Source: Psychrobacter vallis (lineage in GTDB: Bacteria; Pseudomonadota; Gammaproteobacteria; Pseudomonadales; Moraxellaceae). Taken from it: a DNA stretch of 64,000 bases. The first letter of the stretch is position 1; each line of letters starts with the position of its first letter. This document shows positions 6,423 to 31,470 of the stretch, one piece after another. A program made the position numbers and the translations under genes. A model generated the notes under the pieces. The model was not told the origin of the DNA and did no database searches. It saw only the letters and a list, made by a program, of their open reading frames with translations. The stretch covers positions 1-64,000 of the forward strand of contig NZ_CAJHBU010000018.1 in assembly GCF_904846715.1 (NCBI RefSeq), in the 5' to 3' direction.

Positions 6423-8615
6423 TTAAATCACCTCATGCGTCGTTTGCGCATTTGCTGCATCGATCTTTTTAGTATTAGCAAAACCACTGTGGCGCAATAG
6501 GGCATCGATACTGGCACTACGACCACGGAAGTTCTCAAAGTTGGTTTTGGCTGGGAAGCTACCACCAACTGAGAGAATAGTGTCACGGAACGCTTTACCC
6601 GTTACTGGATTAAAAATACCGTCTTCTTCAAACTTACTAAAGGCGTCTGCCGAGAGCAGCTCTGCCCATTTATAAGAGTAATAACCTGCGGCATAACCAC
6701 CGGCAAAGATATGGCTAAAACCATTGGCAAAGCGGTTATAGTCGGGCGTCTGCATAATGGCGATGTCGCTACGTACTGTGTTTAAGGTCGCTAAAATACC
6801 TTCGTAATCAAGTGCTGGCGTATGCGCGTGAATTAATAAATCAAACAATGCGAGCTCGATTTGACGCAGCGTTTGCATGCCACTTTGGAAATTTTTCACT
6901 GCCAATAGTGCATCGAGCTTGTCTTTAGGCAATGCCTCACCAGTTTCGACATGACTGCTGATAAGCGCAATACCTTCGGCATCCCACGCCCAGTTTTCCA
7001 TAAATTGACTCGGTAACTCGACCGCATCCCACTCAACACCATTGACACCAGCGACATCACCGACGGTCACTTGCGTCAGTAAATGATGCAGACCGTGACC
7101 AAATTCATGGAACAAGGTCAGCACTTCATCATGGGTTAATAAGCTGGGTTTGCCATCCAGTGCTGGCGTAAAGTTGCCAACCATAAAGCAAACAGGCAGT
7201 TGCTGATGCGCTTGTTCGTCATAACTATAACGCGACTGAAAGCCATTCATCCATGCGCCGCCCCGTTTACCACTACGGGCAAATAAATCAAAGTAAAAAC
7301 CACCGAGCAGGTTGTCGTCAGCATCAAATAATTGATAAAAGCGTACGTCGTCATGCCAGCGCGATAGCTCTCTATCATCGTTGGTTTGTTCTTTCACCTT
7401 GATATCGTATAGACGCTCTACAATCGCAAACAAGCCATTAATGACTGTTGGCAAGGGAAAGTAAGGACGGATTTCTTCTTGCGACAAGTTAAATTTACTT
7501 TGCTTTACTTTTTCAGCGATATAAGCGCTATCCCACGGTTGTAATTCATCGATGCCGTAAGCATCCGCATACTGTTTCAGTTGCGCCAAATCTTGCTCAG
7601 CTGTGGGCGTTGCTTGCGCTGCTAAATCACGCAAAAAGGTTTCAACCTCTGCCACGCTATCTGCCATTTTTTTCGAGAGTGATACGGCTGCATAAGCAGT
7701 AAAACCTAATAGCTTGGCTTTTTGCTCACGCAATTGCAGGATTTTGCTCATGATATTGGCGTTGTTTAATGACTCACCTTTGGCATTGGTATGCGTATCG
7801 AACTCAGAAGCACGGGTGACATAGGCTCGGTACAGTGTCTCACGCAGATTGCGATCGTCTGCATAGGTCATGATAGCCAAATAAACAGGGATATTTAAAC
7901 TGGCGACATAATAAGGAGTCGATAATGCATCAATGTCTTCTTGCGTGAGTGTGCCGCTGGCAAGCATGCGCGCTTTGTATTGTGCGCCTGCATCTGCTAA
8001 GAGCGCCAGACCACTTTCTGTCAAACCTGCCAGTTGTTCATCTTTCAGCGGTAACGCATAGGCTTGGGTGGCATCCAAAATATGATCAGAAAAAGTCGCT
8101 GATAAGGTAGACAGCTCGCTTTGAATCGCTGCAAATTTTTCTTGTTCAGTTTTGGCTAATGCCACGCCCGACAGCTCAAAGCTTCGTAGCGCAAGCTCAA
8201 TAGCACGTGCCCGCGCAGGTTCGAGTGCGGCAAAAAATGCCTCATCATTTACGACAGCTTGGTACCGACTAAAAAGCGGCTGATATTGTCCCACTCGCGT
8301 GCCATAAGCGGAGAGCTTAGGCAGCAGTTCATGATGGACATGACGAATCTCATCGTTGCTCGTTACGCTATTTAAATGCGACAAAACACCCCAGCTACGA
8401 TCCAGTGCCAAGTTCATATGGTCAAACGCCATGACATCTGCCAAGGCTTGTTCGGCGCTCATGTCAACAGAATGATCATCCTTGTTTGTCGTTCTGGTCA
8501 TGTCATCCAAAAATGCATTGGCAGTATTGATAGCGTTCAGAACTTCGTTCTGTAAGGTGCTTGGCGATGCACTGGCAAAGTCAATAAGGTGTAAGTCTGG
8601 AGAAATAGAGGTCAT
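6423..8615 (-). CDS. prlC: oligopeptidase A (M3 family metallopeptidase)
   Basis: Cytosolic zinc oligopeptidase that degrades short peptides, including cleaved signal peptides. The M3 signature FHEFGHGLHHLL is at about residue 500, with the third zinc ligand region GVEWDAVELPSQFMENW shortly after. Near the C-terminus are YNRFANGFSHIFAGGYAAGYYSY (read as adjacent pieces) and PFxGR-like ENFRGRSASIDALLRHSGF. The start chosen is ATG 8613-8615 (MTSISPDLHL), giving 730 residues; a longer frame adds 19 residues that look unrelated. GGAT ten bases upstream is a weak ribosome binding site. It is followed without gap by yheV. Confidence 0.95.
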   Translation of the reverse strand: MTSISPDLHLIDFASASPSTLQNEVLNAINTANAFLDDMTRTTNKDDHSVDMSAEQALADVMAFDHMNLALDRSWGVLSHLNSVTSNDEIRHVHHELLPKLSAYGTRVGQYQPLFSRYQAVVNDEAFFAALEPARARAIELALRSFELSGVALAKTEQEKFAAIQSELSTLSATFSDHILDATQAYALPLKDEQLAGLTESGLALLADAGAQYKARMLASGTLTQEDIDALSTPYYVASLNIPVYLAIMTYADDRNLRETLYRAYVTRASEFDTHTNAKGESLNNANIMSKILQLREQKAKLLGFTAYAAVSLSKKMADSVAEVETFLRDLAAQATPTAEQDLAQLKQYADAYGIDELQPWDSAYIAEKVKQSKFNLSQEEIRPYFPLPTVINGLFAIVERLYDIKVKEQTNDDRELSRWHDDVRFYQLFDADDNLLGGFYFDLFARSGKRGGAWMNGFQSRYSYDEQAHQQLPVCFMVGNFTPALDGKPSLLTHDEVLTLFHEFGHGLHHLLTQVTVGDVAGVNGVEWDAVELPSQFMENWAWDAEGIALISSHVETGEALPKDKLDALLAVKNFQSGMQTLRQIELALFDLLIHAHTPALDYEGILATLNTVRSDIAIMQTPDYNRFANGFSHIFAGGYAAGYYSYKWAELLSADAFSKFEEDGIFNPVTGKAFRDTILSVGGSFPAKTNFENFRGRSASIDALLRHSGFANTKKIDAANAQTTHEVI

Positions 8616-9106
8616 AAAGATATCCAATTTGAATGAATGATGGGTGGGCAAGTGAGGCGATCTACAGAGCACTAGCGTGCCGCTGAAACAGACGATTTAG
8701 GGTAATGTTAATGTTTTAAGTATTTTATGGTTTATATGGGATATCTAAAAGATGGGTTCATTTGGTAAAAATGCAACCTGATTTATGACTATCTGGTGAT
8801 AGAGTGATTGTTCTAGTAAACTCAGAAAAGATAAAACGACTTTTTAGCAATATAAAGTGTTTTACTTACAAAGCGCTATCATTTGCTTGCAAATTAACCC
8901 TACAGCAGGTTAGGTTCAACTGATAGCATCATTGTAATGGAATAGAGAAATTTTTCTGTAAATCGACAGTTTCTCTAGTATTAAATCCATAATTAACTTG
9001 CTGATGCTAAAAATAAAAAAGATAACAGGGGTTAGTTTTTTTAATAAACCAATTAATTAGCAAATGCCAAATTAATAGTGAATGATAATAAAACAAGGAG
9101 CAATCT
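8616..9106. other. divergent promoter region prlC / Balon-like gene
   Basis: A 491-base AT-rich gap between divergent genes. It must hold both promoters. The only feature that can be assigned firmly is AAGGAG at 9095-9100, six bases before the ATG of the downstream gene. No ORF, hairpin terminator or repeat was supported. Confidence 0.45.
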
Positions 9107-10219
9107 ATGAAAGCGACTCTCAAAAGTTTACGCCAAACCAAAGCCAATCCTGCGGTCAGTATTTTTGTTAAAACACATCGTGCGCATCCCGCTAACGATC
9201 AAGATCCCATTGCCCTAAAAAACCAATTAAAAGTAGCCGAAGAACGCTTAACCAATGAATATGATAAGCGTACCGCGACCACTATTTTGGACAATATTCA
9301 CGCCAAGACCAATGAGCTTAATCATAATTATAATCTTGATACCTTAGCGATATTTGCTAGTACTGACGACGTACAGATCATTCGTATGCCAATTGATACG
9401 ACCGAACGTGTGGTTATCTCAACAAGCTTTGCGACTCGTGATTTGGTTCGTGATATGGCAAGTGCGGTGCATTATTATACGGTAGTGCTTACCCGTGAGA
9501 ACGCTCGTTTGATCGAAGCTTCTAATGATCGTGTCATCAAAGAATTCGATAAAGATGATGATGGCCAAAACAATATGGACAATATTCCTTTCCCTATCGA
9601 AAATAACGGTCTGTATATGACTGGTGATGGTGGTTCGGATCGTTCATCGAACAATGAAAGCAGTTATCTAAACGAGTTCTTTAACCAAGTAGACAAAAGT
9701 GTCCAAGAGCTGTGGGGTGAGCATAAAATGCCTCTGGTTATCGTGGGTGATGCTAAAAATATTGGCTACTACAAAGAAGTCTGTGATCGTCCAGATAACA
9801 TCATTGCGACAGTCTCAAATGCGACCAATCTAGAAGATGGTAGTGCCCAGCATATTATTGATAGTGTTCAAGAGGCGGTAGAAGAGTATCGCACGTCGCT
9901 ACATAAAGCAGCCATGGGTGAGATTGATAAAGCGCGCGGTGCCAATATGTTGCAGACCGATTTACAAGAAGTCTATCGCAGTGCCTTCCAAGGTGCAGGT
10001 GAAACGCTTTATGTCCGCCGTGGATATATCCAATCTGCCAAGATTGATGAAAAAGCGCAGACATTGAGTCTTGCGGATGATGCTGCCGTAGAAGGAGTCA
10101 CCGATGACGCCATTGGCGAAATCATTGAGCATGTGATTCATAATGGCGGTGAAGCGGTATTTATGCCACAAGACATCATGGGCGAAGATCAGCCGATTGC
10201 TTTGGTGACTCGCTACTGA
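9107..10219 (+). CDS. Balon-like ribosome hibernation factor (eRF1/Pelota-related, baeRF family)
   Basis: 370 residues, with a strong AAGGAG ribosome binding site. I recognise it as the bacterial archaeo-eukaryotic release-factor-like (baeRF) family that includes Balon, found on cold-shocked ribosomes of Psychrobacter urativorans (locus AOC03_06830) bound in the A site together with EF-Tu. Visible order: N-terminal domain (1 to about 125; KSLRQTKANPAVSIFVKTHR and TLAIFAST), central domain (about 130-255; YTVVLTRENARLIEA, LVIVGDAKNIGYY), C-terminal domain (about 270-370; DLQEVYRSAFQGAGETLYVRRGYIQ, read as pieces, and VIHNGGEAVFMPQDIMG), which is typical of Pelota/eRF1 C-domains. No GGQ tripeptide is present, so it should not release peptides. 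Monocistronic, with its own terminator. Family is confident; function here is inferred. Confidence 0.85.
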   Translation: MKATLKSLRQTKANPAVSIFVKTHRAHPANDQDPIALKNQLKVAEERLTNEYDKRTATTILDNIHAKTNELNHNYNLDTLAIFASTDDVQIIRMPIDTTERVVISTSFATRDLVRDMASAVHYYTVVLTRENARLIEASNDRVIKEFDKDDDGQNNMDNIPFPIENNGLYMTGDGGSDRSSNNESSYLNEFFNQVDKSVQELWGEHKMPLVIVGDAKNIGYYKEVCDRPDNIIATVSNATNLEDGSAQHIIDSVQEAVEEYRTSLHKAAMGEIDKARGANMLQTDLQEVYRSAFQGAGETLYVRRGYIQSAKIDEKAQTLSLADDAAVEGVTDDAIGEIIEHVIHNGGEAVFMPQDIMGEDQPIALVTRY

Positions 10220-10292
10220 TTGATGAATGCTGTCTGTTGATCATAGTCATTTACAGACGAGGCATTAATAGAAAATAGTGAGACATACTGTA

Positions 10293-10328
10293 AAAGCATT
10301 GATTCGATAAGAATCAATGCTTTTTTTT
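10293..10328 (+). terminator. Rho-independent terminator of the Balon-like gene
   Basis: A perfect twelve-pair stem, aagcattgattc (10294-10305) with gaatcaatgctt (10311-10322), loop gataa, then a T-run. Confidence 0.92.
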
Positions 10329-10751: not shown

Positions 10752-10872
10752 AAAAATGCCGTCTAGGGTTCCGATATAGTAAGGGAATAATACTTTCCAA
10801 CACTATATGACTGGTCCGAGAGATGGCGGTTCGAAAGAACTACACGGAGGGATAAAAGCCCGGGAGACTCTA
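10752..10872 (+). ncRNA. guanidine-I riboswitch (ykkC class, subtype 1)
   Basis: Matches the conserved guanidine-I aptamer in order: ctaGGGttCCG near 10763-10773, ACTGGTCCGAGAG near 10810-10822, then ACACGGAGGGATAAAAGCCC and GGGAGA through 10866. The class senses guanidinium and commonly controls guanidine carboxylase/urea-carboxylase-type operons and their ABC transporters, as here. A hairpin follows (taagtga / tcactta, 10871-10890) ahead of GGAG and the start codon, so ligand control may act on translation or on a weak terminator; which one is not clear. Confidence 0.93.
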
Positions 10873-10914: not shown

Positions 10915-11679
10915 ATGTCATCATTTCCAATCACTACATCAGACAGCTCGTCTTCAGCCCATTTCAGCATACCTTTATCCGGTGGTCACCATTGGTGCGG
11001 TCGAATCAACAAACATCATGTGCTAACCCTCAAGTCACTCGCCGCCAATGCCAATGCTAGTCTATATGTGGTCAATGCTGATGAGAAGCTTGAACGCTTC
11101 AACATGCCAGACAGCCTAAAAGCGCAACACACATTATACCTGTCCAAAGGTCACGTGCTCTATTCCGATATGGGCCGAGTATTGGCTTCTATCATCAGTG
11201 ATGACCATGGCTGGAATGATGCCATTTGTGGCCCTAGTAATGCTGCTATGATCAGCAGTCAGTACGGCAAAAAAACCTTTCAAGATGCTCGCAATGATCG
11301 CTATCAAAACGGTCTTGATGGGTTACTCACCGAAATGTCGAAGTTTGCTCTAAATACGAGTGATCTGACCGCAACCCTGAATCTATTCTCTAAAGTCACC
11401 CCTGATGTCCAAGGACAGCTGTCTTATGTGACTGCCGACAATACCGACCAATCTGTTTCCTTACGCTTTGAGATGAATTGCTTAGTGTTCATTTGCAATG
11501 CGCCGCATCCGCTTGACCCATCAGACGTTTATGATCCGGCTGACATTGAGCTAACCGTTCAGGCTGCAGCGCCGATGGTGCCAAAGACTGAGTTTGATGT
11601 CTGCCGCGATTCTTGTGAGCAAAACCAGCGCGGCTTTGAGAACAATGCTCGCTATTTTGGTGACTACGCAAACGTATAA
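10915..11679 (+). CDS. DUF1989 protein, urea carboxylase-associated protein 1 type (probable carboxyguanidine deiminase subunit)
   Basis: 254 residues. It matches the UAAP1 group of DUF1989: HHWCGRINKHHVLTLKSL, the long ERFNMPDSLKAQHTLYLSKG (20 residues), HVLYSDMGRVLASI, the ARNDRYQNGLDGLL segment and NCLVFICNAPHPLDPS near the end. In characterised loci (CgdAB in Pseudomonas) the two DUF1989 proteins form a heteromeric carboxyguanidine deiminase that turns carboxyguanidine into allophanate. GGAG lies eight bases before the ATG. It is the first gene after the guanidine riboswitch and is followed by the second DUF1989 gene. Confidence 0.85.
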   Translation: MSSFPITTSDSSSSAHFSIPLSGGHHWCGRINKHHVLTLKSLAANANASLYVVNADEKLERFNMPDSLKAQHTLYLSKGHVLYSDMGRVLASIISDDHGWNDAICGPSNAAMISSQYGKKTFQDARNDRYQNGLDGLLTEMSKFALNTSDLTATLNLFSKVTPDVQGQLSYVTADNTDQSVSLRFEMNCLVFICNAPHPLDPSDVYDPADIELTVQAAAPMVPKTEFDVCRDSCEQNQRGFENNARYFGDYANV

Positions 11680-11743
11680 ATAACGTTTGATCGTCGCAGA
11701 TGCTTATCAAGAGATGCCTCATTTTAATCAAGGGAACCAGATC

Positions 11744-12448
11744 ATGACTATTAATAACGAAATTCAAAAAAAAGATAACTATGTAGATAATGTAGAGAGT
11801 GTAGAGAGTGTAGATGCAATCGATTCTAAGAATATTCAGCTGCGCGAGATATGTGCCGCTGGAGAGGGATGGATGGCAGAGGTCAAAAAAGGTCAGACGT
11901 TACGCATTATAGATAGTGAAGGCAATCAGGCAGTCGACACCTTGTTTATAAGCTGTGCTGACATTGCCGAACGTTATAGCGCCACCGATACATTGGCGCA
12001 GAATCAGAAGTTATTTTTGGAAATGGGCAGCCAGCTTTTTACGAATAAAGGCCGCGTCATCGCTACTATCACAGAAGATACTTGTGGTCGCCATGACACG
12101 TTGGGCGGTGCGTGCTCATGCGAGAGCAATACCGTACGTTACGCTCACGATACCTATCCCATGCACAGCTGTCGAAACAACTTTATGCATACCCTAGCGA
12201 CCCATCCGATTGCTCAAAAGCATGGTCTGACGCTACGCAATATCGGACCAAATATCAATTTCTTTATGAATGTGCCCATCACCCCTGATGGCAGCTTGGC
12301 CTTCGACGATGGTATCTCAGCCCCTGGTAAATATGTCGATATCACCGCTCAAATGGACATGATTGTGCTCATTTCAAACTGTCCTCAGCTCAATAATCCC
12401 TGCAATGGCTACAACCCAACGCCAATTGAGCTTGTGATCTATGAGTGA
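11744..12448 (+). CDS. DUF1989 protein, urea carboxylase-associated protein 2 type (probable carboxyguanidine deiminase subunit)
   Basis: 234 residues from the ATG at 11744, preceded by AAGGGA; an in-frame codon at 11687 would add 19 residues without a ribosome binding site. The UAAP2 pattern is clear: KKGQTLRIIDSEGNQAVDTL, DTCGRHDTLGGACSCESNTV, INFFMNVPITPDGSLAFDDG, and VLISNCPQLNNPCNGYNPTP. The Cys/His cluster CGRHDTLGGAC is the likely metal site. The first 30 residues are extra and repetitive (VESVESVDAID). Partner of the preceding protein. Its stop overlaps a GTG of the next ORF, so coupling is tight. Confidence 0.87.
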   Translation: MTINNEIQKKDNYVDNVESVESVDAIDSKNIQLREICAAGEGWMAEVKKGQTLRIIDSEGNQAVDTLFISCADIAERYSATDTLAQNQKLFLEMGSQLFTNKGRVIATITEDTCGRHDTLGGACSCESNTVRYAHDTYPMHSCRNNFMHTLATHPIAQKHGLTLRNIGPNINFFMNVPITPDGSLAFDDGISAPGKYVDITAQMDMIVLISNCPQLNNPCNGYNPTPIELVIYE

Positions 12449-12507
12449 GTGCGACGTTTGCAGATAAGACGACACGATCTATTAATAAGAAAGCTGAGGA
12501 AATTGTG

Positions 12508-15500
12508 ATGTTCAAAAAAGTATTGATTGCCAATCGTGGTGCTATTGCTTGTCGAATTATACGTACCTTAAAACAAATGGGTGTGGCTTCAGTTGCCGTT
12601 TATACCGATGTGGATCGCGGATCCTTGCACGTCAGTGAGGCTGATGAAGCCATAAAAATAGGCACTGGTCCTGCCAGTGACAGCTATCTGAATATGGACA
12701 AAGTGCTGCAAGCAGCTATTGATTCAGGTGCTGAGGCGATTCATCCGGGTTATGGGTTTTTGTCAGAAAACGCAGCATTCTGTGATCGCTGTGCGGCAGC
12801 TGGTATTGCCTTTATTGGACCAACCTCAGAGCAGTTGCTCAGCTTTGGACTCAAACACACAGCTCGTAAACTGGCCATTGAAAGCCAAGTGCCATTATTA
12901 CCCGGTAGCGATCTACTACAGGACGTTGATGAGGCATTAGGTGAGGCTGAGCGTATTGGCTACCCTGTCATGCTAAAAAGTACGGCGGGCGGCGGCGGTA
13001 TTGGTATGCGTCTCGTCTGGAACGAAGGTGAGCTTAAAGACGCTTACGAATCCGTGCATCATTTGGCACAAAGTAACTTTAGCGACGCAGGTCTTTATCT
13101 TGAGAAATTTGTAGAGCATGCCCGCCATATCGAAGTTCAAGTCTTCGGTGATGGTATGGGTAATATCATTACCTTAGGGGAGCGCGATTGCTCTATCCAG
13201 CGGCGCAATCAGAAGGTGATCGAAGAGACGCCAGCACCGCTACTATCAGATGCTCAACGACAGAATCTGCAACAGGTGGCTACTCAGTTGATGCAACAGG
13301 TTAACTATCGCTCTGCGGGTACGGTTGAGTTTGTGATGGATGTCTCGACACAGGCGTTTTATTTCTTGGAGGTCAATACGCGCTTACAAGTGGAGCATGG
13401 CGTCACCGAAGAGATTTACCAAGTAGATTTGGTGCGCTGGATGATTGAGCTGGCCGCAGGGGAGTTTGTATTACCAGCGTTGCCACTACAGGCATCAGGT
13501 CATTCGATTCAGGTTCGTTTATATGCTGAAGATCCGGTCAAAAGCTTCCAGCCAAGTACTGGCATTTTAACGGATGCCTATTTTGATAAAGAAGCGCGCA
13601 TTGAGACTTGGATAGAAACAGGCAGCGAGATATCTGCTTTTTATGATCCGATGCTGGCGAAAATTATCGTCACTGCCCCTGACCGTACTCAAGCATTGGC
13701 AAAGATGAGCAAAAGCTTGGCAGTGTCTCGCATGGCAGGTCTGGAAACCAACCTCGAATATTTACAGCAAATAGTGGCCTCAGATACGTTTCATAAAGGC
13801 GCGCAGACCACAAGGTTTTTGAATACCTTCACGTGGCTCAGTCAAAAGATTGAAGTGATACAGTCAGGTGTGCAGACTGCGGTACAAGATGTACTCGGTC
13901 GACAAGGCTATTGGGATGTGGGGGTGCCGCCATCGGGTGCGATAGATGGTTTGAGTCTCAATACCGCCAATCAGCTGTTGGGCAATCCATTCAACACAGC
14001 AGGTCTTGAGTGTGTGGTCACTGGACCGACGTTACTGTTTCATTGTGACAGTCAGATTGCCATCACTGGCGGCACAATGAGTTGCCTGTTGGATGGTGAA
14101 GCGCAACCAATGTGGCAAACCATCACCGTACGTAAAGGTCAGACACTTGCGTGTGGCAATATCACATCGGGCTGTCGCAGCTATATTGCCATCAAAGGTG
14201 GAATAGATGTGCCTGAGTATTTAGGCAGTCAAGCAACCTTTAGCTTAGGGCAGTTTGGTGGTCACGCTGGTCGTAATTTGCTAATCGGGGACATGCTACC
14301 GATTGAGCGATGTGATACACCTAGCGCGACCAAAACCTTACCCGTGGCACAGCGTCCAGAGTTTAGCGGGTTATGGCAAATAGCCGTCATGTATGGACCA
14401 CATGGTGCGCCAGATTTCTTCACGGACAATGACGTATCGCAGTTCTTTGGGCACGAGTGGGACGTTCATCATAATTCTAGCCGTACTGGCATCCGCCTGG
14501 TTGGCCCCAAGCCTGAATGGGCGCGTGAAGATGGCGGCGAAGCAGGTCTACATCCTTCAAACATCCATGACAATGCTTATGCCGTTGGCGCGATCGATTT
14601 CACTGGTGACATGCCAATTATTTTGGGGCCAGATGGACCAAGCTTAGGCGGCTTTGTTTGCTTGAGTGTCATCGTCGCAGGTGAGCGTTGGAAAATGGGA
14701 CAGCTCAAAGCGGGTGATCGAGTTCAGTTCGTACCTGTCAGCTACGAGCAAGCCGCGCAATTACATCAGCGCTACGATGACATGCTGCGAGCTGATGACT
14801 GTCGTTTGATTGATTACCGCTTACCAGTCACTACCGATAAGGCTACTTTGCAGAGCGCCATACTAGAGTCACTACCTATCAATGATATCCGTCCAAAAGT
14901 GGTATATCGCCCCGCAGGAGATAGCTATATATTGATTGAATACGGCGAGCAGGTGCTGGATTTGCAACTGCGCTTTCGTGTTCAGGCATTGATGGAGTGG
15001 CTACAAACGCAGCAGATCGATGCCATTATCGATTTGACACCCGGTATTCGCTCGTTATTAGTCCACTATCATTCATTAAAGCTATCACAGCCAACCCTGC
15101 TAGCGATGCTCAAGCAAGCGGAAAGCGCCTTGCCTGATATTAAAAACATGCAAGTACCTTCTAGAATTGTCCATCTACCAATGGCATGGGCGGATTCGCA
15201 AACCAAGCTCGCGACAGAAAAGTATCAGCAGTTGGTACGCCCCGATGCGCCGTGGTGTCCTGATAATATCGAATTTATCAGACGTATCAATGGTTTGGCT
15301 TCGGCTCAAGCGGTCAAAGACATTGTCTATGATGCCAGTTATTTGGTCATGGGACTGGGTGATGTGTATTTGGGCGCGCCCGTTGCCACGCCACTCGATC
15401 CCAGACATCGTCTCGTCACCACCAAATACAATCCTGCCAGAACATGGACACCAGAGAATGCCGTGGGCATCGGCGGCGCTTACATGTGCATCTATGGTAT

Positions 15501-16143
15501 GGAAGGCCCAGGCGGTTATCAATTCGTGGGCAGAACGCTACAAATATGGAACCGCTATCGCTCGCATCCAAGCTTTGAAGCTGAAAAACCATGGCTGCTA
15601 CGATTCTTTGATCAAATTCGTTTTTATGAAGTCAGTGAAGAAGAACTGTTATTGATGCGAACCGCCTTTAAAGCGGGTGAGCTATCGATTGAGGTTGAAG
15701 ATAGTGTGTTAAACCTCGCTGAGTATTACGACATGCTAAGTGAGAACAAAGACAGTATTCAGACGTTCAAAGATCAGCAACAAGCCAGTTTTGAGGCTGA
15801 ACGTCAGCGTTGGAAGCAGCAAGGGATTGATCAATACGTTGGTGAAAATATTGAGGCGGTAGAGGTTTCATCAGACGTCACTGTACCTGAGGGCGGCATA
15901 GTCGTCAAAGCTCATATGATGGGTAGTGTCTGGAAAATCGCTTGTGCCGTAGGCGATGTGGTCGATGAAGGACAGACGCTAGCGATTATAGAAGCAATGA
16001 AAATTGAAATACCCATTATGTCGCCAGTGGCGATGCAGGTGGTGAGTATTGAGATTGAAACTGGCATGACAGTGAAATCTGAGCAGCCTTTATTCGTACT
16101 GGCACCGATCACCGTTAGCGAATCAACGACGACAATAAAGTAA
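12508..16143 (+). CDS. biotin-dependent guanidine carboxylase (urea carboxylase family)
   Basis: 1211 residues from ATG 12508 (MFKKVLIANRGAIACRII), with GAGGA seven bases upstream; a GTG at 12445 would add 21 residues. Order: biotin carboxylase with ATP-grasp (1 to about 450; KSTAGGGGIGMRL, QVFGDGMGNIITLGERDCSIQ read as pieces), carboxyltransferase halves of the KipA/AHS2 type (about 470-780) and KipI/AHS1 type (about 800-1040), then a biotinyl domain with EAMKIE, biotin lysine near residue 1165. It carboxylates guanidine or urea using ATP and bicarbonate. The riboswitch and the two DUF1989 genes argue for guanidine as substrate; sequence alone does not settle it. Allophanate hydrolase follows. 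Confidence 0.88.
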   Translation: MFKKVLIANRGAIACRIIRTLKQMGVASVAVYTDVDRGSLHVSEADEAIKIGTGPASDSYLNMDKVLQAAIDSGAEAIHPGYGFLSENAAFCDRCAAAGIAFIGPTSEQLLSFGLKHTARKLAIESQVPLLPGSDLLQDVDEALGEAERIGYPVMLKSTAGGGGIGMRLVWNEGELKDAYESVHHLAQSNFSDAGLYLEKFVEHARHIEVQVFGDGMGNIITLGERDCSIQRRNQKVIEETPAPLLSDAQRQNLQQVATQLMQQVNYRSAGTVEFVMDVSTQAFYFLEVNTRLQVEHGVTEEIYQVDLVRWMIELAAGEFVLPALPLQASGHSIQVRLYAEDPVKSFQPSTGILTDAYFDKEARIETWIETGSEISAFYDPMLAKIIVTAPDRTQALAKMSKSLAVSRMAGLETNLEYLQQIVASDTFHKGAQTTRFLNTFTWLSQKIEVIQSGVQTAVQDVLGRQGYWDVGVPPSGAIDGLSLNTANQLLGNPFNTAGLECVVTGPTLLFHCDSQIAITGGTMSCLLDGEAQPMWQTITVRKGQTLACGNITSGCRSYIAIKGGIDVPEYLGSQATFSLGQFGGHAGRNLLIGDMLPIERCDTPSATKTLPVAQRPEFSGLWQIAVMYGPHGAPDFFTDNDVSQFFGHEWDVHHNSSRTGIRLVGPKPEWAREDGGEAGLHPSNIHDNAYAVGAIDFTGDMPIILGPDGPSLGGFVCLSVIVAGERWKMGQLKAGDRVQFVPVSYEQAAQLHQRYDDMLRADDCRLIDYRLPVTTDKATLQSAILESLPINDIRPKVVYRPAGDSYILIEYGEQVLDLQLRFRVQALMEWLQTQQIDAIIDLTPGIRSLLVHYHSLKLSQPTLLAMLKQAESALPDIKNMQVPSRIVHLPMAWADSQTKLATEKYQQLVRPDAPWCPDNIEFIRRINGLASAQAVKDIVYDASYLVMGLGDVYLGAPVATPLDPRHRLVTTKYNPARTWTPENAVGIGGAYMCIYGMEGPGGYQFVGRTLQIWNRYRSHPSFEAEKPWLLRFFDQIRFYEVSEEELLLMRTAFKAGELSIEVEDSVLNLAEYYDMLSENKDSIQTFKDQQQASFEAERQRWKQQGIDQYVGENIEAVEVSSDVTVPEGGIVVKAHMMGSVWKIACAVGDVVDEGQTLAIIEAMKIEIPIMSPVAMQVVSIEIETGMTVKSEQPLFVLAPITVSESTTTIK

Positions 16144-29007: not shown

Positions 29008-31199
<2,192 letters not shown>

Positions 31200-31309
31200 G
31201 ACTTCCCTGCGTCGGTACTAACCGCATCAGGTTCGGCGGGTGATCTCTCAGCGAATGTATCAAAGCGACTACTTTAAAAAAGTAAGTCAATAATACACCG
31301 CACCCCGAG
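31200..31309 (-). ncRNA. TPP riboswitch (THI element)
   Basis: Read on the minus strand: CGGGGTGC at the 5' side, CTGAGAGATCACCCGC, GAACCTGATGCGGTTAGTACC and GCAGGGAAG (split pieces of the conserved THI box). These are the diagnostic elements of the TPP aptamer. It lies upstream of thiC in the right orientation, so thiamine pyrophosphate would repress thiC. Confidence 0.95.
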
Positions 31310-31470
31310 TCTGTCAGTGTTGTAAATCTTCTTTATACTAGCAAAATTCTACACTGACGGCTAACGATATTTCGGCATGAGTAGCACGTTTTAAAGATGA
31401 TGGTTGTATGCACTCCGCTTTTTTTCAAAATAATTCGTTAGCAGTCGTTGAAAACGAAAGATTAAGAGTG

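Follow-up and report, generated by a model that had tools for sequence, protein, structure and literature searches.

A conserved promoter-like block upstream of the gene for the ribosome hibernation factor Balon in Psychrobacter

The question raised by this locus is how cells of Psychrobacter switch on Balon, a matter on which the portions covered of the paper describing the protein (PMC10901736) are silent; the word "promoter" is absent from its main text. Cryo-EM structures and knockouts of Balon have been published in this genus (PMC10901736). In late-stationary Psychrobacter urativorans the protein was found in the A site of practically all ribosomes, and it was also found there after ice shock; its binding does not depend on mRNA, can go together either with RaiA or with mRNA plus tRNA, and includes a contact to EF-Tu-GDP (PMC10901736). 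Balon-deficient Psychrobacter arcticus grew slightly faster than normal under optimal conditions, and showed a first-day growth defect when recovering from three months of dormancy (PMC10901736). A literature search for a Balon promoter in Psychrobacter returned no relevant paper among the sources covered, which left out most subscription papers and bioRxiv preprints, and the block reported below may have been described in print elsewhere. The window analysed here is a stretch of 64,000 nucleotides from Psychrobacter vallis, part of a genome assembly of 3.22 Mb in 56 contigs.

The open reading frame in question (Table 1) exists as originally described, running from an ATG to a TGA, and its predicted identity as Balon, within the eRF1/Pelota-related baeRF proteins, is supported by several kinds of comparison. 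A phmmer search against solved structures aligned residues 1-370 with residues 1-369 of P. urativorans Balon (8rd8_B; E 1.3e-203) with one gap. The NCBIfam equivalog model for the AOC03_06830-family ribosome hibernation factor (NF052287) was passed at 523.4 bits against a cut-off of 330, and Pfam baeRF_family3 (PF18845) at 109.4 bits against a gathering cut-off of 31.5, while baeRF_family7 barely passed its own (29.5 against 27.2). Structure prediction had been proposed as a check, and here too Balon itself was the best structural match: Foldseek placed 8rdv, 8rdw, and 8rd8 at ranks 1-3 (E 8.7e-53 to 5.2e-52, 81-82% identity over 366 columns). The AlphaFold2 model, built with 29 sequences, has a mean pLDDT of 74.2 and a pTM of 0.59; the N-terminal third is weakest, with eight of the first twelve ten-residue blocks below 60 pLDDT. 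Superposition of the model on the Balon chains gave TM scores of 0.66-0.68 and an rmsd of 5.8-5.9 Å, and such a high rmsd with a middling TM probably reflects misplaced domains in a model of moderate quality. The next matches after the Balon chains were two Msmeg1130 chains and then aRF1/eRF1 chains, with Rv2629 at rank 13, so that Foldseek recovers a three-domain aeRF1-like fold, the model being moderately confident in its N-terminal third. Because the sequence tests and the fold search alike return Balon as best match, the best structural match of the protein is not an unrelated fold. It is very probable that this gene encodes a full-length orthologue of the P. urativorans protein.

The only HP dipeptide in the protein, H27-P28, is invariant in all 29 aligned rows from Psychrobacter, Moraxella, and Lysobacteraceae, and we infer that it corresponds to the published HP motif of Balon. 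The middle domain, where Balon has its lasso loop and bL27 trap region, aligns to 8rd8_B without gaps, and low-confidence stretches of the model fall there (for example, residues 173-176); the C-terminal EF-Tu-hairpin region has model strands at 311-314 and 319-322 and aligns to 8rd8_B with one gap. GGQ, the catalytic motif of an active aeRF1-type release factor, is absent from the reading frame, as had been claimed, and neither GGQ nor NIKS is present in any of 70 copies from the genus, this one included. Compared with P. urativorans Balon (AOC03_06830; PDB 8RD8, 8RDV, 8RDW), the protein has the same length to within one residue, has HP at the same place, and differs as an ordinary species orthologue would, with nothing found that predicts another function. 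The mycobacterial proteins Msmeg1130 and Rv2629 (PDB 8V9J, 8V9K, 8V9L; Foldseek ranks 4, 5, and 13) have the same three-domain fold but only 13-15% identity to it; they also bind the A site, and their genomic context differs from that of Balon (PMC10901736). The aRF1/eRF1 and Pelota/Dom34 proteins share the superfamily fold at about 9-15% identity, but aeRF1 carries both GGQ and NIKS and the Psychrobacter protein has neither. The closest named orthologue by tree path is that of Psychrobacter aquaticus, with 94% protein identity. The protein is a routine orthologue of a described family, in the genus of its discovery. The suggestion that older annotation calls such proteins hypothetical was only partly right: a dedicated NCBI hibernation-factor model exists, and the PDB molecule name of the solved chain 8rd8_B is "Methyl-accepting chemotaxis protein", a misleading annotation.

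It might be argued that the protein is a Pelota/Dom34-like ribosome-rescue factor of the baeRF clade and not a hibernation factor. The Pfam match is generic to this clade, for which either relief of stalled ribosomes or shutdown of translation has been proposed (PMC6514570); however, the protein passes the equivalog model for AOC03_06830, and it is more than 80% identical to a protein that is bound, independently of mRNA, to practically all stationary P. urativorans ribosomes (PMC10901736). A role in rescue is therefore very unlikely. As a catalytically dead relative of aeRF1, the hibernation factor would shut the ribosome off while leaving it able to restart, and the same A-site mechanism is to be expected by orthology, from the P. 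urativorans structures. It could act together with RaiA, which is also encoded in the genome.

Among the other factors searched for in this genome, there is one RaiA/HPF-type gene, RMF was not found, and the RpoS model has two matches, both below its cut-off, one of which is RpoH. The HPF/RaiA-type gene and rpoH lie within about 1 kb of each other on contig 17 (L189, 195-575 and 1477-2532), a different contig from that of Balon. Balon itself is matched in all 100 genus genomes searched, this one included, and in 97 of them it is single, uninterrupted, and full-length; in two it is interrupted and found in several pieces (G058, G076) and in one only residues 1-173 are matched (G031). Frames broken by stops or shifts, either through sequencing error or real loss, are seen in Psychrobacter sp. 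WY6 (L166) and JCM 18901 (L179) as well as in G058 and G076. In the family as a whole, 61 of 149 genomes have a match above the curated cut-off and 64 have one at E 0.001, with matches in 5 of 16 genera.

Table 1. Positions in the window of the Balon gene, its divergent neighbor, and the signals around them
Feature	Position	Strand	Evidence or remark
Oligopeptidase A (PrlC)-like M3 peptidase, divergent neighbor	6423..8615	-	below NCBIfam oligopeptidase A cut-off
Upstream repeat CTTACAAA, proposed activator half-site 1	8865..8872	+	alignment, site model, alignment-free scan
Downstream repeat CTTGCAAA, proposed activator half-site 2, 21 bp from the first	8886..8893	+	alignment, site model, alignment-free scan
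Predicted -35 hexamer TACAGC (17-nt spacer), within the conserved CCcTAyAG box	8901..8906	+	
Extended -10 TGATAGCAT (TGnTAnnnT)	8921..8929	+	conserved spacing from repeats
Predicted 5' untranslated leader, ~171 nt	8936..9106	+	predicted start near 8936
Ribosome-binding site AAGGAG	9095..9100	+	6 nt before the Balon ATG; conserved in upstream alignment and alignment-free scan
Balon gene, very probable orthologue (baeRF family 3; AOC03_06830-family ribosome hibernation factor)	9107..10219	+	370 aa
Intrinsic-terminator-like hairpin, 14-pair stem, then T run	10292..10324	+	simple scan

The original prediction of a strong ribosome-binding site and of a terminator belonging to the gene holds at the sequence level (Table 1). 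By chance, the simple scan that located the hairpin would give 1.5 such sites in the region; among 70 loci, 57 have a terminator-like hairpin within 260 nt 3' of Balon, a figure that was not set against shuffled sequences. The divergent region was given as 491 bases (8616-9106), which is correct provided that translation of the oligopeptidase begins at the ATG at 8615; the region is shorter if it begins at the GTG at 8672, which opens the longer mechanical reading frame. The ATG was chosen here, and matches to the resulting protein begin at residue 1 in most related loci. An oligopeptidase A-like gene is found upstream of Balon on the opposite strand in 70 of 70 genomes, with gaps of approximately 414-778 nt (tblastn starts). 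Two riboswitches were also observed in the window. A Guanidine-I riboswitch (10752-10868, + strand; 84.3 bits, gathering 63) lies just 3' of Balon and is followed by genes for the urea-amidolyase-associated proteins UAAP1 and UAAP2 and a urea carboxylase-type enzyme (10915-16143), which together with it probably form a guanidine-degradation operon; a TPP riboswitch is present at 31187-31317 (- strand; 59 bits, gathering 54.3).

That regulation of this gene might be studied in isolation was a useful remark, since a single promoter-like block is conserved in the divergent region. Upstream regions were compared in 70 genomes: this genome with the 29 best matches after it, and 40 genomes picked for diversity from the 70 others of the genus. 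In an alignment of the 51 non-redundant regions, one block stands out as conserved; apart from it, only the ribosome-binding site and some isolated columns are. Within the 65 bases of the block (8865-8929), two CTTRCAAA repeats, spaced 21 bp, are followed by a poor match to a -35 and by an extended -10 directed towards Balon; the consensus of 35 non-redundant sites is CTTACAAAGCGYYATCATTTGCTTGCAAA, followed by a box around CCcTAyAG and by TGnTAgnnT. The block occurs in 63 of the 70 genomes, 62 having both repeats at no more than two mismatches within 600 nt and one (L059) having a one-base deletion. The P. urativorans loci L149 and L165 carry it. A third, degenerate repeat (TAGCAAT, 8845-8851) lies 21 bp further upstream of the pair, and TAACAAT, which resembles it, is found in the closest kin of the window but not throughout the genus; the sequence between the two main repeats bears what we take to be a weak resemblance to an IHF site.

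Conservation was also assessed without an alignment, by searching 24-mers taken every 6 bases from the 430 nt before the ATG, within 4 bases, in 39 of the 51 non-redundant loci, with Markov-shuffled sequences as a control; these 39 come from the second, 40-genome set and have approximately 90% protein identity or less. The 24-mers starting at 8863, 8869, 8875, and 8881 were matched in 19-25 of the 39 divergent loci versus none of the 39 shuffled ones, that at 8887 in 7, and that at 9079, which covers the ribosome-binding site, in 14, with a few single matches elsewhere. From 8893 onward, where the 24-mers cover the -10, matches were near chance. Clear conservation in the 430 nt scanned is therefore limited to the repeat half of the block and the ribosome-binding site, and since the scan backs the repeat half only, the case for the -10 comes from the 35-site model and from the spacing count in 62 sites.

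That count is informative in that the sites were chosen by the two repeats alone, the -10 element having played no part in the choice. All 62 sites have TGnTAnnnT at the expected distance from the repeats, give or take 1 nt, whereas the 27,370 positions of the same regions contain the pattern 109 times; the 62 are not independent trials, because related genomes share ancestry. The recurrence of an element that was not used in picking the sites is why the block is read as the promoter of Balon, which we consider likely, its anatomy being drawn from conservation. The -35 hexamer, taken at a 17-nt spacer, agrees with TTGACA at only two of six bases in 52 sites and at three of six in 10. A conventional promoter scan did not report the proposed promoter, and chance would give about as many matches as the nine that it returned. 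The predicted leader ranges from 89 to 318 nt across the sites, with a median of 144. The two loci with in-frame stops (L166 and L179) were kept in the site count and excluded from the tree described below, and one locus (L143) was excluded from the count, its site lying beyond the 450 nt scanned; the matching genome (G016) has a model match.

The block is also specific to Balon, as far as the patterns searched can tell. The exact pair TTRCAAA-N14-TTRCAAA occurs once in the 3.2-Mb genome, at Balon, while the pair with up to one mismatch occurs in five places, compared with 11 for a reversed control pattern. A site model of 83 positions was built from 35 of the 62 sites, and the best 120 candidates per genome were scored. 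Of 25 genus genomes, 21 gave one strong match (E 4.1e-14 or better), which in every case lies upstream of Balon; in the genome of the window no second match was better than E 0.296 among the best 120 candidates, and in 13 genomes of other families in the order, whose Balon content was left unchecked, none was better than E 0.005 among the best 120. No regulon sharing the block was detected in the genome of the window, a search in which looser sites could be missed.

Position does not by itself assign the block to Balon. Its left end is approximately 250 nt from the start of the prlC-like oligopeptidase and 242 nt from the Balon ATG; in all 70 genomes these genes point away from each other, as might be expected if the block served the oligopeptidase, or both genes, instead of Balon alone. 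However, the extended -10 points towards Balon with the same spacing, to within 1 nt, at every one of the 62 sites, the distance of the block to each gene varies, and no comparably conserved element directed at the oligopeptidase was seen in the upstream alignment. Service to the oligopeptidase is accordingly improbable, and the reading as Balon promoter is retained.

If the block is the Balon promoter, then transcription would start near 8936 from a weak extended -10 promoter, which would need an activator on the two CTTRCAAA repeats, 21 bp or two helical turns apart. Activator-dependent promoters usually have this layout, in which a poor -35 and an extended -10 go with repeats on one face of the helix, here at about -71 to -43. 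That a putative activator binds the repeats has a somewhat better than even chance of being correct; the signal that it would answer is presumed, and the start site is a prediction. The repeats could instead be a repressor operator that keeps Balon off during growth. Activator sites are usually upstream of the -35, repressor sites more commonly lie across the -10 or beyond it, and the repeats lie upstream of the poor -35, at about -71 to -43 from the predicted start, which argues against an operator. A palindrome, TTTGC-TT-GCAAA, does overlap the second repeat, and repression during growth would make sense because Balon-deficient P. arcticus grew slightly faster under optimal conditions (PMC10901736). 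Repression is considered unlikely, and activation is the preferred reading.

Other kinds of control were considered and set aside. The leader together with the first codons (8934-9140) folds like shuffled sequences (z = 0.01), the leader is unconserved in the alignment-free scan apart from the ribosome-binding site, and a conserved, structured thermosensor is therefore unlikely; within the divergent region, no Rfam family scored as high as its gathering threshold. The tandem repeats suggested an OmpR-type regulator such as BfmR, but the literature search found no comparable motif, including in the portions of PMC4888885 that it covered, and so no regulator is named. RpoH-type spacing, judged by eye, does not fit the block.

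The block is absent from 7 of the 70 genomes, all of which keep Balon, and one of these has a partial match (L063; E 0.0017). Among the named Psychrobacter loci, 68 of 74 have the site at no more than two mismatches within 450 nt; the six without it are Psychrobacter phenylpyruvicus, Psychrobacter piechaudii, Psychrobacter pasteurii, Psychrobacter lutiphocae, and two metagenome bins. Outside the genus, three Moraxella and two Lysobacteraceae loci gave no model match at E 1, and Moraxella caprae and Moraxella lacunata have CTTACAAAC, which is like the first repeat, with four and three mismatches to the pair, respectively. On a Balon tree from a quick search, in which 24 of 68 inner branches are weakly supported, presence and absence of the site need four changes. 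A five-member phenylpyruvicus/lutiphocae group stands beside Psychrobacter coccoides, which has the site, and deep branches such as Psychrobacter pygoscelis carry weaker versions of it, so loss of the site in this group is plausible. P. pasteurii, P. piechaudii, and P. phenylpyruvicus retain a core resembling ACCcTATAG...TTGGTAATAT, which looks like a promoter without the repeats. An association of site loss with the warm-growing "flexible" ecotype was considered from the portions of PMC8546975 covered, but Psychrobacter faecalis and Psychrobacter pacificensis are flexible and keep the site; loss therefore follows lineage, not ecotype.

Taken over the genus, it is possible, though it can be put forward only tentatively, that in most Psychrobacter Balon is under a dedicated single-gene activator site through which hibernation would be switched on, and that the phenylpyruvicus/lutiphocae/pasteurii lineage lost the site and kept the gene, the wiring having changed and not the protein. 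With ribosome-bound structures and a deletion of Balon already available from this genus, the protein described here adds little, and what is new is the conserved, proposed control site. Being short, conserved, present once, and set at a constant distance from an extended -10, the site offers a direct handle for finding a regulator, in a genome without any match above the RpoS cut-off.
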